Of a stretch of DNA of 35,606 nucleotides, positions 7,316-35,265 are shown in pieces. The notes below the pieces were generated by a model, which was not told the DNA's origin, searched no databases, and saw nothing but the letters and a program-made list of their open reading frames with translations. Both the position numbers and the translations under genes were made by a program. Where the stretch lies: positions 1 through 35,606 of the forward strand of contig JAFRBS010000020.1 of the NCBI GenBank assembly GCA_017404725.1, read 5' to 3'. The DNA is from Candidatus Saccharimonadota bacterium. GTDB taxonomy: Bacteria; Patescibacteriota; Saccharimonadia; Saccharimonadales; Saccharimonadaceae. The first letter of the stretch is position 1. Each line of letters starts with the position of its first letter.

Positions 7316-7378
7316 GCGATAAAAGATAATATATCAATATATTTCAGATAGATAACAGAGGCCAAGCATTTTTTGTGC

Positions 7379-7408
7379 TTGTAAAAATTTGACAAAGTAT
7401 GCTATAAT
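7379..7408 (+). promoter_or_regulatory. Promoter of ncRNA E2
   Basis: CTTGTAAAAATTT containing -35 TTGTAA (7379-7384), 18-nt spacer, -10 TATAAT (7403-7408). Same -35 style and spacing as the E1 promoter, with a consensus -10. Confidence 0.75.
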
Positions 7409-7414
7409 GGACGA

Positions 7415-7708
7415 CGTTTGGTTCGTTAAAATTTTTTAGGGGTGAAATTGAGGCGCGGGTGTGGCTTGCGCTAGAGCTACGCTCAAAAGCTGCGAGGCTC
7501 CTCAATAAACGGCTATTCTAGTTGCGCTAAAGGCGCTTAGAAAGGAGATGCCTATGACTATCACGCTAGAAATTGCGCGCATAATCTTCCGTGTCGGCCT
7601 GAAAGTTGCCAAACCTAAAAAATGATTAGTTACCCGTAAAGGATAACTAATCACCAACCAAACATGGGAGTTATGTTACTAGAGCATAACTTTCCTGTCA
7701 TTATTTTA
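7415..7708 (+). ncRNA. Structured ncRNA element E2 (paralogue of E1), unknown family
   Basis: Second copy of the E1 element, ~294 nt, in the gap between gyrB and an antitoxin gene that are both on the other strand. Same block order as E1: GCGCGGGTGTGG (7453-7464), CTGCGAGG, AACGGCTATTCTAG, GAAAGGAGA, CTAAAAAAT, TCACCAAC. Stems: TTGAGG/CCTCAA (7448-7453 with 7500-7505), GATTAGTTA/TAACTAATC (~7623-7652) and a last hairpin at ~7666-7695 with an ACTAGAG loop. The last two stems differ in sequence from E1 but keep pairing, which supports selection on RNA structure. It contains a good ribosome binding site and a 23-codon ORF. Confidence 0.72.
7554..7625 (+). CDS. Possible 23-aa cationic peptide inside ncRNA E2
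   Basis: ATG at 7554 lies 6 nt after AAAGGAG. The ORF starts MTITLEIARIIFR and ends GLKVAKPKK, giving a short hydrophobic stretch with a basic tail. The E1 element has a matching ribosome binding site and ATG (2506), but that frame stops after 7 codons; a related peptide (WARLLGLKL to LKRVKTKK) sits in another frame up to 2588. It could be a leader peptide, a type I toxin-like peptide, or incidental to RNA structure. Confidence 0.4.
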   Translation: MTITLEIARIIFRVGLKVAKPKK

Positions 7709-7727
7709 TCATAGGCGAAATCTCGCG

Positions 7728-7982
7728 TCAAGCGAAGTATCTCTCCACGCCCCACCCATCGTCCTCTGGGGTTTCAACTTCCTTCGGTACCTCATCCACC
7801 TCTGTTTCCCCCTCATAACGTTCCGGCAGGCTTATCTGTAAAGGAATGCTCTTAGTTAGAACACATTGCCTCAAAAACACATTAATCACCCCTGGAAGGT
7901 CAGTCCCCAGCTCCTTAAAAAGCCGCGAGGCTTCTTCCTTAGTTTCTTTATCTATTCTGATCTGTACCGGTATCGTGCTCAT
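7728..7982 (-). CDS. RelB/DinJ-like antitoxin without a toxin partner
   Basis: 84 aa. The N-terminus (IPVQIRIDKETKEEASRLFKELG, split here as IPVQIRIDKETK and EEASRLFKELG) followed by DLPGVINVFLRQCV is the ribbon-helix-helix DNA-binding and dimerisation region of the RelB/DinJ family. The acidic C-terminus would normally wrap the toxin. Position 2 of the expected operon is empty: downstream lies ncRNA E2, with no RelE/YafQ ORF. Upstream on the same strand is a Fic protein, which might be a substitute partner, but nothing in the sequence proves it. Start preceded by AAAGGAG. The promoter has TATAAT at 8001-8006. Confidence 0.8.
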   Translation of the reverse strand: MSTIPVQIRIDKETKEEASRLFKELGTDLPGVINVFLRQCVLTKSIPLQISLPERYEGETEVDEVPKEVETPEDDGWGVERYFA

Positions 7983-7992
7983 ATTTTCTCCT

Positions 7993-8040
7993 TTACTACA
8001 ATTATACTACAAAAACACTACAAATGTAATATTTTTGTAA
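7993..8040 (-). promoter_or_regulatory. Promoter with TTGTAGT repeats before the RelB-like gene
   Basis: The minus strand has TATAAT (8001-8006) embedded in a series of TTGTAGT/TTGTAGTA copies (three within ~30 nt) and a nearby TTGTTACAAAAA. Repeats of this kind over the -10 region suit autoregulation by a ribbon-helix-helix antitoxin. Confidence 0.45.
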
Positions 8041-8068: not shown

Positions 8069-8995
8069 CTATTCAACCGGCGTCGTAATAAAGTCGCCCC
8101 ATGGCGAAGGGTCCGGCGCCGGCGCATAATTTGCATTAATTCGCCATCGCCCATCATGCCGAAACGCCGGAATACTTTGCCGCTTAGCCTTATTTGACGC
8201 AATATTGGCTTTTATGTTGTGATTTTTTGCCCATTTTCCAAGCGTCATCGTCTTCTCGCTCGAAAGTAGCGCAATATATTTGCGCAGCGATTCTACTAAT
8301 GCTAAAGCGAAAAATATCACGAGCTCGTCACAATTCCCCGTCTTTTTGTACTGTTTGATTAGCGCCTGATATTCCGCCGCGCAGCCTTTATTCTGAATAA
8401 TAATCGGCGGAAAACCATTTTCCATCAGCTCTTTATCGATCAAAAGACGCGCGACTTGTCCGTTCCCCTCTGGAAACGGCCGCATCGCTAACAGTTCTAC
8501 GTGAAAAAACGCTATTTTTTCCAAAAATTCACGATTATCTTCATTATGCCGTTTTATCAAATCTTCCAGTAAAGCACGAACGAATTCAGGGCTAGTTTCG
8601 GCTTGCGCATCCTTTTTCGCCCGCCGATTATCAATCCTGAACTGTCCAGCCGCCACATCGTTCACCCCTGAAAGAAACTTCTTATGTAATTCTAGAATCA
8701 GAAGGACCGACAATCTCTGATCCAAATTCTCATAAGCCAAATCTGCCGCTAAGCTTAAGTTCTTTGCCCGGTAAATCTCTTTTACGCTCGCCGCACGCTC
8801 CACCTTACCCTTTATGATAATGCTTTTTACCTCTTTAAGCGTAAGCGTAGAACCCTCAATCGCGTTGGAATTATAAACTGCTTCTGGTAATTCCCTCCGC
8901 AAAATTTTCGAAAACCCCTGGGGATCTGCCTCTACGAGCTTATGGTATTCTTCACCCAAAGTCTGAATTTCCGTCCTCAGTCGATTGATTTTCAT
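8069..8995 (-). CDS. Fic-domain protein with degenerate active site
   Basis: 308 aa. An N-terminal inhibitory helix carries the class II motif S43-N-A-I-E47-G48, then the Fic core, then a winged-helix-like C-terminus with RQSIPAFRHDGRWRI typical of stand-alone Fic regulators. The catalytic loop should read HPFxxGNGRxxR but here reads RPFPEGNGQVAR (172-183): the catalytic His is Arg (codon CGG) and the GNGR Arg is Gln. AMP transfer is therefore unlikely. The inhibitory motif is kept, so loss of activity may be recent or the protein may do something else, such as nucleotide binding or gene regulation. ATG lies 8 nt after TATAAT. Confidence 0.88.
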   Translation of the reverse strand: MKINRLRTEIQTLGEEYHKLVEADPQGFSKILRRELPEAVYNSNAIEGSTLTLKEVKSIIIKGKVERAASVKEIYRAKNLSLAADLAYENLDQRLSVLLILELHKKFLSGVNDVAAGQFRIDNRRAKKDAQAETSPEFVRALLEDLIKRHNEDNREFLEKIAFFHVELLAMRPFPEGNGQVARLLIDKELMENGFPPIIIQNKGCAAEYQALIKQYKKTGNCDELVIFFALALVESLRKYIALLSSEKTMTLGKWAKNHNIKANIASNKAKRQSIPAFRHDGRWRINANYAPAPDPSPWGDFITTPVE

Positions 8996-9003
8996 ATTTT
9001 TCT

Positions 9004-9062
9004 ATTATACCATAAATTTCCGCATTTCGCGTGAAAATCCACGATTTCACGATTTTTTCACG
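9004..9062 (-). promoter_or_regulatory. fic promoter with CGTGAAA repeats
   Basis: Minus strand -10 TATAAT (9004-9009). Just upstream are two direct CGTGAAA copies and one inverted copy (TTTCACG/CGTGAAA at 9030-9062), able to form a hairpin or to be an operator. The winged-helix tail of the Fic protein is one candidate binder. Confidence 0.45.
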
Positions 9063-14986: not shown

Positions 14987-15342
14987 GGGGCTGACAAAGC
15001 TTAGACGGGTCATTAACAGATATCAAGCGTGTCGATTTATACCGTAAGTATAGTTTAACTGCAGAAAACAAAACTGCAAAGCACGTGCTTTACGCACCTG
15101 CTTATGCTTAGATCTACGGATTTAAGCTCGGCCCTCGTGTGATTTCTCATAGCATCGATGGGTTGTCATAGCATGAGAATAGGGGTCCGCCCGACGCACG
15201 GTTCCCCGAAATCTAGTCGCGGCGCCTAGGCGGTCTTGTCTATCTTCCGCCAGGATTTCGCCTTTAAAGAAACAGACTACACACGTAGAAAGATATCCCC
15301 GTGATGATTCGGACGCGGAGGCAGTATCCGCCAGCTCCACCA
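14987..15342 (+). ncRNA. ssrA: tmRNA (ssrA) with tag AENKTAKHVLYAPAYA
   Basis: One-piece tmRNA of 356 nt. The acceptor stem GGGGCTG pairs with CAGCTCC followed by ACCA (15332-15342). The tag reading frame runs 15061-15108 with stop TAG at 15109 and encodes AENKTAKHVLYAPAYA, so the tag ends in AYA rather than the common LAA. CGGACGCGG before the T-arm matches other tmRNAs, but the T-loop is GGCAGTA instead of TTCRANY, and the D-loop part reads AGCTTAGAC instead of GGNTTCGAC. It rescues stalled ribosomes with SmpB. CCA is encoded. Confidence 0.95.
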
Positions 15343-34954: not shown

Positions 34955-35265
34955 TAAGCCGTCTCCGCTATACCTAGATTTTTGCGGATTTCGGCGGCGC
35001 TATAACTTTCCTCACTGTTCTCGTTAGTTTCAACGGCTTTATCTAAAAACCTCAATAGTTCATCCTCGGTTTTAATACTCATGCAGGCCGGCATCTTTTC
35101 GTCAACTTTCGTATCAAAAGGAATATTACGCTCATAAATAACCCGGCGCAAAGTCATATTTATCAGGTCGGACATCGAAATCCCGATCTGTTCTAACACG
35201 CTTTCCGAGCACTCCTTAACCATTGGGTCTACTTTTACATGTATATCTGCGGTTGCAATTGCCAT
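34954..35265 (-). CDS. RelB/DinJ-like antitoxin
   Basis: 103 aa from ATG 35265, preceded by GGAGAAAA; the in-frame upstream ATG at 35316 lies in the operator. Ribbon-helix-helix start (TADIHVKVDPMVKECSESVL), GISMSDLINMTLRRVIYERN dimerisation helix, then an acidic tail. The promoter is covered by a perfect palindrome (35292-35322). Its toxin gene is broken, so it survives as an orphan regulator, perhaps still acting on other toxins or on its own promoter. Confidence 0.85.
   Translation of the reverse strand: MAIATADIHVKVDPMVKECSESVLEQIGISMSDLINMTLRRVIYERNIPFDTKVDEKMPACMSIKTEDELLRFLDKAVETNENSEESYSAAEIRKNLGIAETA

Follow-up and report, generated by a model that had tools for sequence, protein, structure and literature searches.

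The Fic-family protein encoded at 8069-8995 of the window, by which we mean the whole stretch of 35,606 nucleotides that was analysed, is probably a naturally occurring Fic pseudoenzyme that has been retained to bind DNA and regulate its own gene. Proteins of the Fic family usually attach AMP onto other proteins. In the protein studied here, which is shared by two related small-genome bacteria, the catalytic His and the first Arg of the family motif have been replaced, and the conserved residues of the flap have mostly gone, so that nucleotide transfer has very probably been lost with them. The Fic fold, a predicted DNA-binding tail and an inverted repeat in front of the gene have all been kept, and this combination of loss and retention is the reason to think that a former enzyme has probably become a regulator. 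Accounts of Fic pseudoenzymes that lack the catalytic His and clearly do something else are scarce in the literature searched; the non-catalytic or degenerate cases found there are BepC, other Bep domains, and Fic2 of C. fetus. In the titles and abstract openings covered, to which subscription journals contribute thinly, no His-to-Arg Fic protein kept as a DNA-binding protein is described, and searches on Fic proteins in Saccharibacteria gave nothing relevant.

The gene and the segments of its product are placed as follows:

8069-8995, minus strand: gene of the probable Fic-fold pseudoenzyme, an open reading frame of 308 amino acids
8852-8869, minus strand: inhibitory-helix motif SNAIEG, residues 43-48 (S43-N-A-I-E47-G48), intact
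8591-8650, minus strand: former flap segment, residues 116-135, in which the family consensus EWVRVGTH has become RRAKKDAQ at residues 124-131
8447-8482, minus strand: active-site loop RPFPEGNGQVAR, residues 172-183, the R..Q core of which is found by pattern search at 8456-8482
8126-8251, minus strand: predicted C-terminal winged-helix (HTH) domain, approximately residues 249-290, from the AlphaFold2 model and column conservation

The protein matches the Pfam Fic family (PF02661) with 51.3 bits, at a cut-off of 24. The original prediction, made from the DNA letters, was of a Fic protein with Arg for the catalytic His, Gln for the first motif Arg, and an intact SNAIEG, and all of these residues were confirmed. 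The motif of Fic AMP transferases, HxFx(D/E)GNGRxxR, has no match in the loop of this protein, nor in that of its orthologue, RPFVTGNGQIGR. What remains of the loop is PFxxGNG together with the last motif Arg (R183), so that the protein may still bind phosphate or a mononucleotide. By its N-terminal inhibitory helix, with the (S/T)xxxE(G/N) consensus, the protein belongs to class II Fic proteins; the orthologue has SNAIDG at the same place, off that consensus. Examined as a potential FicTA module, the gene has a TraD-like gene and a RelB gene for neighbours and no small adjacent antitoxin, the inhibitory helix being provided in cis.

The window genome (738,871 bases in 32 contigs, 97.9% complete) contains six Fic-domain places, among them an active-looking paralogue at C19:69523-70383 that is 41% identical to the window protein and has HPFGDGNGRIGR and SNAIEN at the two motifs. 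Three protein searches, with overlapping genome sets, were used for the census of relatives: matches were obtained in 43 of 151 genomes from the taxonomic family, in 69 of 174 from the genus and, with a two-row profile, in 121 of 394 from the family. In these searches, the sole full-length protein with more than 50% identity is encoded at G180:C6:8272-9195 (locus L038) in another species; it is 67% identical and lies in a syntenic region, in which gyrA is 91%, gyrB 96%, relB 51%, fic 67% and the TraD-like gene 85% identical between the two genomes. The prediction had asked whether orthologues share the Arg and Gln replacements; this one true orthologue shares both, and the two proteins will be called the R/Q proteins. 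Since the same pair of residues occurs in the orthologue, a sequencing or assembly error is an unlikely source of it, and the synteny suggests, most simply, that the replacements predate the split of the two species.

The other homologues form a set of 41 full-length or near full-length proteins (32 collected first and 9 more added later, two pairs, L040/L041 and L044/L149, being identical proteins), scoring above a census limit of 100 bits and excluding partial L021, L057 and L058; weaker matches, below about 75 bits, appear in the loci inspected to belong to different Fic groups or to be fragments. The catalytic His is found in 41 of 41 of these homologues, and so is SNAIEN; the first motif Arg is found in 39. 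A normal HPF..GNGR motif in orthologues had been named as the sign that this copy is merely mutated. It is absent from the one true orthologue found, and the His is present in all 41 of the more distant proteins. The two homologues that depart from the first motif Arg, L019 with Cys (GNGC) and L077 with His (GNGH), retain the catalytic His, and from their sequences they may possibly represent the first steps of the same decay. Another member, L021 (G149:C1:610515-611335), is split across two frames and is apparently a broken gene.

In a tree of 35 rows, in which the bootstrap had not quite converged and a very long branch leads to the outgroup, the R/Q proteins form one clade with 100/100 support on a stem of 1.74, amid active-looking Fic proteins. 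The RPFxxGNGQ motif was found in one of 392 genomes of the order, namely the window genome itself (G180 is not part of that set). A collection of genome contigs outside the genome set gave one remote match from Deltaproteobacteria, 34% identical in its best segment (residues 77-186). No close relative was found in viral contigs, and all 340 matching plasmid records were below 60% identity to the window protein, with 27-33% among the 20 matches listed.

Comparison of the two R/Q genes gives dN of 0.220, dS of 1.083 and dN/dS of 0.203 (bootstrap 0.132-0.283), rough values that come from a single gene pair at dS near 1. For the same species pair, dS is 1.148 in gyrA, 1.113 in gyrB and 0.938 in traD, and the similar value in fic fits common descent with its neighbours. 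Its dN, however, is about 3 to 7 times that of these neighbours (0.220 versus 0.031 for gyrB), and this rate, along with the place of the gene in an accessory cassette that is missing in 11 of 14 congeners with a visible site, could be taken to indicate a decaying, functionless pseudogene of a mobile Fic module. Such a reading is already disfavoured, and we hold it to be very unlikely, given that neither copy is interrupted over its 308 codons, that dN/dS is near 0.20 (0.13-0.28), and that operator, promoter and winged helix have all been retained.

The distribution of changes along the protein is uneven. Of six regions compared, residues 246-308 have the lowest dN (0.137) and the active loop, residues 166-190, the highest (0.353). 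A similar picture emerges from the 122 columns in which at least 90% of 32 homologues have one residue: both R/Q proteins keep that residue in 3 of 13 such columns in the flap (116-135), in 9 of 20 in the loop (165-190), and in 13 of 14 in residues 251-308 (Fisher test, p = 0.0004 against flap and loop together, and p = 0.007 against all other columns, where 59 of 108 are kept). Conserved columns are also well retained in residues 136-164 (8/11) and 221-250 (6/8), therefore the whole fold appears to be maintained, and selection in the R/Q proteins does not act on the DNA-binding part alone. Raw identity between the two proteins is mildly higher in residues 251-290 (32 of 40 positions) than in the rest (174 of 268), a difference that is not significant (Fisher test, p = 0.07).

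These patterns also bear on the alternative that the protein is still an enzyme, with changed chemistry: the PFxxGNG anion nest and the last Arg would bind nucleotide or phosphate, another residue would replace the His, and a different substrate would be modified or hydrolysed. Both R/Q proteins retain PFxxGNG and R183; non-canonical Fic motifs support other reactions (PMC8401265), and C. fetus Fic2 is toxic despite a degenerate motif (PMC5651007). Against this, the metal-site acid of the motif is E in the window protein and has become T in its orthologue, the flap has lost its consensus, and none of the other five regions compared changes as fast as the loop. If a new activity were under conservation, the pocket would be expected to stay constant. 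We consider changed chemistry quite unlikely.

The regulatory reading is helped by the predicted structure. The original prediction had named structure prediction as a check. In the AlphaFold2 model of the window protein, made with 33 family sequences as input, a winged helix comes after the Fic fold (mean pLDDT 86.3, pTM 0.85). The elements of the winged helix in the model are strand E249-251, helices H252-258 and H263-271, and strands E277-280 and E283-287, with pLDDT of 92-95 in this block; the same domain is predicted in the model of the active paralogue (mean pLDDT 86.0). At the sequence level, the Pfam HTH_17 match to the winged helix is below threshold (12.5 bits, E = 0.18), and the sequence profile of the domain finds no convincing relative in the PDB. 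Model confidence is low for the flap in the window protein and active paralogue alike, therefore the loss of the flap is judged from sequence. The window model superimposes by VIA-align on C. elegans Fic-1 (5jj6_B) with Z of 27.6 and rmsd of 1.8 over 230 residues. C. elegans Fic-1 and human FICD are class II Fic enzymes that have the inhibitory motif; the window protein has the same fold and an inhibitory motif as well, but differs from both in the replaced catalytic His and first Arg and in the winged helix that follows the Fic domain.

The region upstream of the gene contains two elements:

9030-9062, no strand assigned: putative operator, the inverted repeat CGTGAAAA-N17-TTTTCACG, formed by the outer two CGTGAAA repeats
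9004-9012, minus strand: extended -10 promoter TGGTATAAT, 8 nt ahead of the fic ATG

The CGTGAAA repeats that had been pointed out before fic are real, and the outer two of them are the arms of a 33-bp inverted repeat with perfect 8-nt arms, 17 nt apart, which is conserved in the orthologous locus. The exact pattern CGTGAAAA-N10..24-TTTTCACG has a single match in the 738,871-base genome, at this very site. When three mismatches are allowed, 26 of 100 shuffles of the window have a match, so a single match in the window is unremarkable at that level, and the weight lies on exactness of the repeat and on the family comparison. In the latter, the pattern CGT(G/T)(A/T)AA-N18..22-TT(A/T)(A/C)ACG is found ahead of 26 of the 33 family genes that have at least 100 nt of upstream sequence, starting 53-67 nt before the ATG (mean 0.003 and maximum 1 in dinucleotide shuffles of the same upstream regions). 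Of 30 full-length relatives, 23 are among these 26, which also include the window gene, its orthologue and the broken L021. A looser pattern is found in 29 of 33 (0.39 when shuffled), near versions can be seen by eye in several of the misses (L010, L016, L040, L041), and a slightly looser pattern matches in 7 of 9 further family members. With its occurrence across the family, the operator suggests that small-genome bacteria have a whole set of probable Fic-HTH autoregulators, and its sequence supplies exact probes for testing DNA binding directly.

No regulon beyond the gene's own promoter is visible, as no further copy with spacing N17 and up to two mismatches exists in the window genome. At up to three mismatches there are 10 places, compared to 6 for a reversed control, and all but the window site have three mismatches; other spacings were scanned for exact matches alone. 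The paralogue has an operator of a different type, CGTTTAA. We considered the choice between CGTGAAA and CGTTTAA as a readout of the winged helix and rejected it: L049 has a helix close to that of the CGTTTAA type but a CGTGAAA site, and the operator types mostly track the tree.

The promoter is a family trait, too. Within their last 45 nt, all 33 family upstream regions have a TGN with a -10-like hexamer behind it (e.g., L002, L015, L049; shuffled mean 0.28), and in 32 of 33 this extended -10 sits 6-8 nt ahead of the ATG (shuffled mean 0.01), start codons having been picked by a simple rule. From so short a distance, the mRNAs of this family, including that of the window gene, are probably leaderless or near-leaderless. 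The end of the repeat lies 10 nt upstream of the -10 element in 20 of the 24 other genes with a repeat, versus 20-21 nt in the two R/Q genes, where the operator is shifted away from the -10 by about one helical turn relative to the other members. With the winged helix and the operator, the idea of a repurposed regulator gains a mechanism that the original prediction did not have. Points against it are the sub-threshold Pfam match of the winged helix, the shifted operator and the lack of a visible regulon; to these may be added that Fic2 of C. fetus, with its degenerate motif, is still a toxin (PMC5651007).

The closest known system is CccR of Yersinia pseudotuberculosis (PMC9755527, PDB 7XUX), a class II Fic protein with a C-terminal HTH domain, which has FtsZ as its AMPylation target and also represses its own promoter via the inverted repeat AGATAATCAT-N26-ATGATAATCT. 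Dimerisation is required for repression, and in H192A strains the reporter was still repressed in recipient cells, the two activities being termed independent by the authors (PMC9755527). The window protein resembles CccR in the N-terminal inhibitory helix, the Fic fold, the predicted C-terminal HTH and the inverted repeat near its own promoter, and residues 1-283 of its model superimpose on 7XUX by VIA-align with Z of 20.7 and rmsd of 3.0 over 237 residues. The two proteins differ in that CccR is active, with H192PFGNGNGRTVR203, whereas the catalytic His and the first motif Arg are replaced in the window protein; the repeats differ as well (10-N26-10 in CccR, 8-N17-8 here). Repression by CccR in its H192A form lends support to the regulatory reading, and by this analogy the window protein corresponds to an H192A mutant made by nature: evolution appears to have repeated the mutational separation of functions, with loss of the enzyme and survival of the DNA-binding half.

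A plausible course of events can be proposed. The ancestors would have been class II Fic enzymes, with the N-terminal inhibitory helix and a C-terminal winged helix, and Fic proteins of this ancestral type most likely bind, as dimers, to the inverted repeat, which overlaps the region ahead of the extended -10 element in their own promoter, thereby controlling their own expression. In the lineage of the window protein, the catalytic His would have changed to Arg and the first motif Arg to Gln, and the flap that clamps the substrate would have lost most of its conserved residues, with retention of the fold, the inhibitory-helix region, the winged helix and the operator. The present-day dimer would then bind the 33-bp repeat and control expression of its own gene, presumably, by analogy with CccR, through repression. 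Dimeric binding to DNA, like any further target, is something that we infer. The benefit to the cell may lie in the control of this gene by itself, in an effect further downstream or in protection against active relatives.

Other degenerate Fic proteins offer partial parallels. The FIC domain of BepC acts without catalysis, via partner binding, and shares with the window protein the Fic domain; it is part of a secreted Bartonella effector that binds host GEF-H1 and has a BID domain, and the portion of the report at hand describes no DNA-binding domain (PMC7842960). C. fetus Fic2 has the degenerate motif HPFREGNTRTIA (PMC5651007), and like the window protein it comes from a genome with several Fic proteins; it is toxic, keeps the His and has no inhibitory helix, whereas the window protein lacks the His and has the helix. 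Neutralisation of one Fic protein by another was shown in that species (PMC5651007), a precedent for thinking that the window protein might be an antitoxin-like partner, restraining an active Fic protein in mixed dimers through the inhibitory helix or by dimer poisoning. The retained inhibitory-helix region and the active-looking paralogue in the same genome would suit such a role. Yet G180, 98% complete, has no active-type family member, only a distant Fic match, the inhibitory Glu is Asp in the orthologue, and the paralogue's operator is of the other type, all of which makes the partner role unlikely. The autoregulator remains our preferred interpretation.

The gene does not stand alone. Downstream of it lie the following features:

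7993-8025 (approximate), minus strand: TTGTAGT-type repeats before relB, conserved in the orthologous locus and promoter/operator-like
7728-7982, minus strand: gene of a RelB/DinJ-like antitoxin (NCBIfam RelB_DinJ, 53.4 bits, cut-off 45.65)
7370-7711, plus strand: conserved structured element of the same cassette, containing a 23-residue ORF, MTITLEIARIIFRVGLKVAKPKK (7554-7625, ATG at 7554)

As had been predicted, the gene next to fic is RelB-like and has no toxin beside it: between relB and gyrB, the ORF listing has no frame of at least 60 amino acids, the 23-residue ORF being present there. The accompanying suggestion that fic and relB form a repurposed pair, not an AMPylase, held up in part. 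Comparison supports a regulator for the Fic protein, but relB as its functional partner is not supported, as relB has a promoter-like region of its own and tblastn finds no copy of it beside other family members, in loci mostly reaching about 1.5 kb from the gene. That region, with its repeats, is conserved in both species, so relB is probably a transcription unit separate from fic, even though the two genes share one cassette in both. A second RelB-like gene is found at 35062-35247 on the minus strand, near the end of the contig, and the genome has four RelB places altogether.

The structured element is 92.7% identical in DNA sequence to its counterpart in G180, and positions 7409-7705 have an RNA folding z-score of -4.0; a hairpin follows the 23-residue ORF. 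In 29 other relatives there are merely three matches of 25-28 bases, so that, among the loci compared, the element is limited to these two genomes; Rfam has nothing at gathering score for it. Judging by these features, it might possibly be an sRNA or encode a small membrane peptide.

We searched for the TraD-like gene in 17 other genomes of the genus and found 14 orthologues and 3 distant paralogues (36-38% identical). In 11 of the 14 orthologous loci, gyrB follows within about 0.6 kb and the cassette is absent; in the remaining three, gyrB is not within the flank compared. No fic or relB was detected by tblastn in any of 29 loci. Because the loci of the relatives compared have neither fic, relB nor the structured element, these three most likely form a cassette that was gained at this site, with the TraD-like gene on one side and gyrB on the other. 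One may speculate, although we deem it improbable, that this cassette is an antidote island, in which the dead Fic protein, still able to dimerise and to occupy CGTGAAA-type operators, and the orphan RelB guard the cell against incoming modules. If true, a toxin would have been turned into an immunity factor against active Fic-HTH and RelE modules, working by repression of incoming promoters or by poisoning of dimers.

Two more places, below the score limit of the census, were examined separately. At G210:C3:14738-15358 (L060:1288-1908), a truncated relative of 207 amino acids matches residues 157-284 of the window protein at 33% identity. It has VRPFGRRDAEV where other members show IHPFxDGNGRIGR, the region of the inhibitory motif is absent and the Pfam Fic match is gone, and the winged-helix segment is retained (NKARRQTIPAFRKNGKW). 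Its gene starts directly after the stop codon of an upstream gene, which we take by its appearance to be of the RelA/SpoT type, and the family operator was not found before it. With no orthologue above 36% identity among the 174 genomes of the genus, the G210 relative may simply be decaying. The other place, in G289 (L064), encodes a 92-residue piece without the motif region. By the G210 relative, loss of the catalytic loop with retention of the winged helix has probably happened more than once.

Elsewhere in the window, where ARAGORN reports no tmRNA, Rfam identifies one at 14987-15342 on the plus strand, with 96.4 bits.
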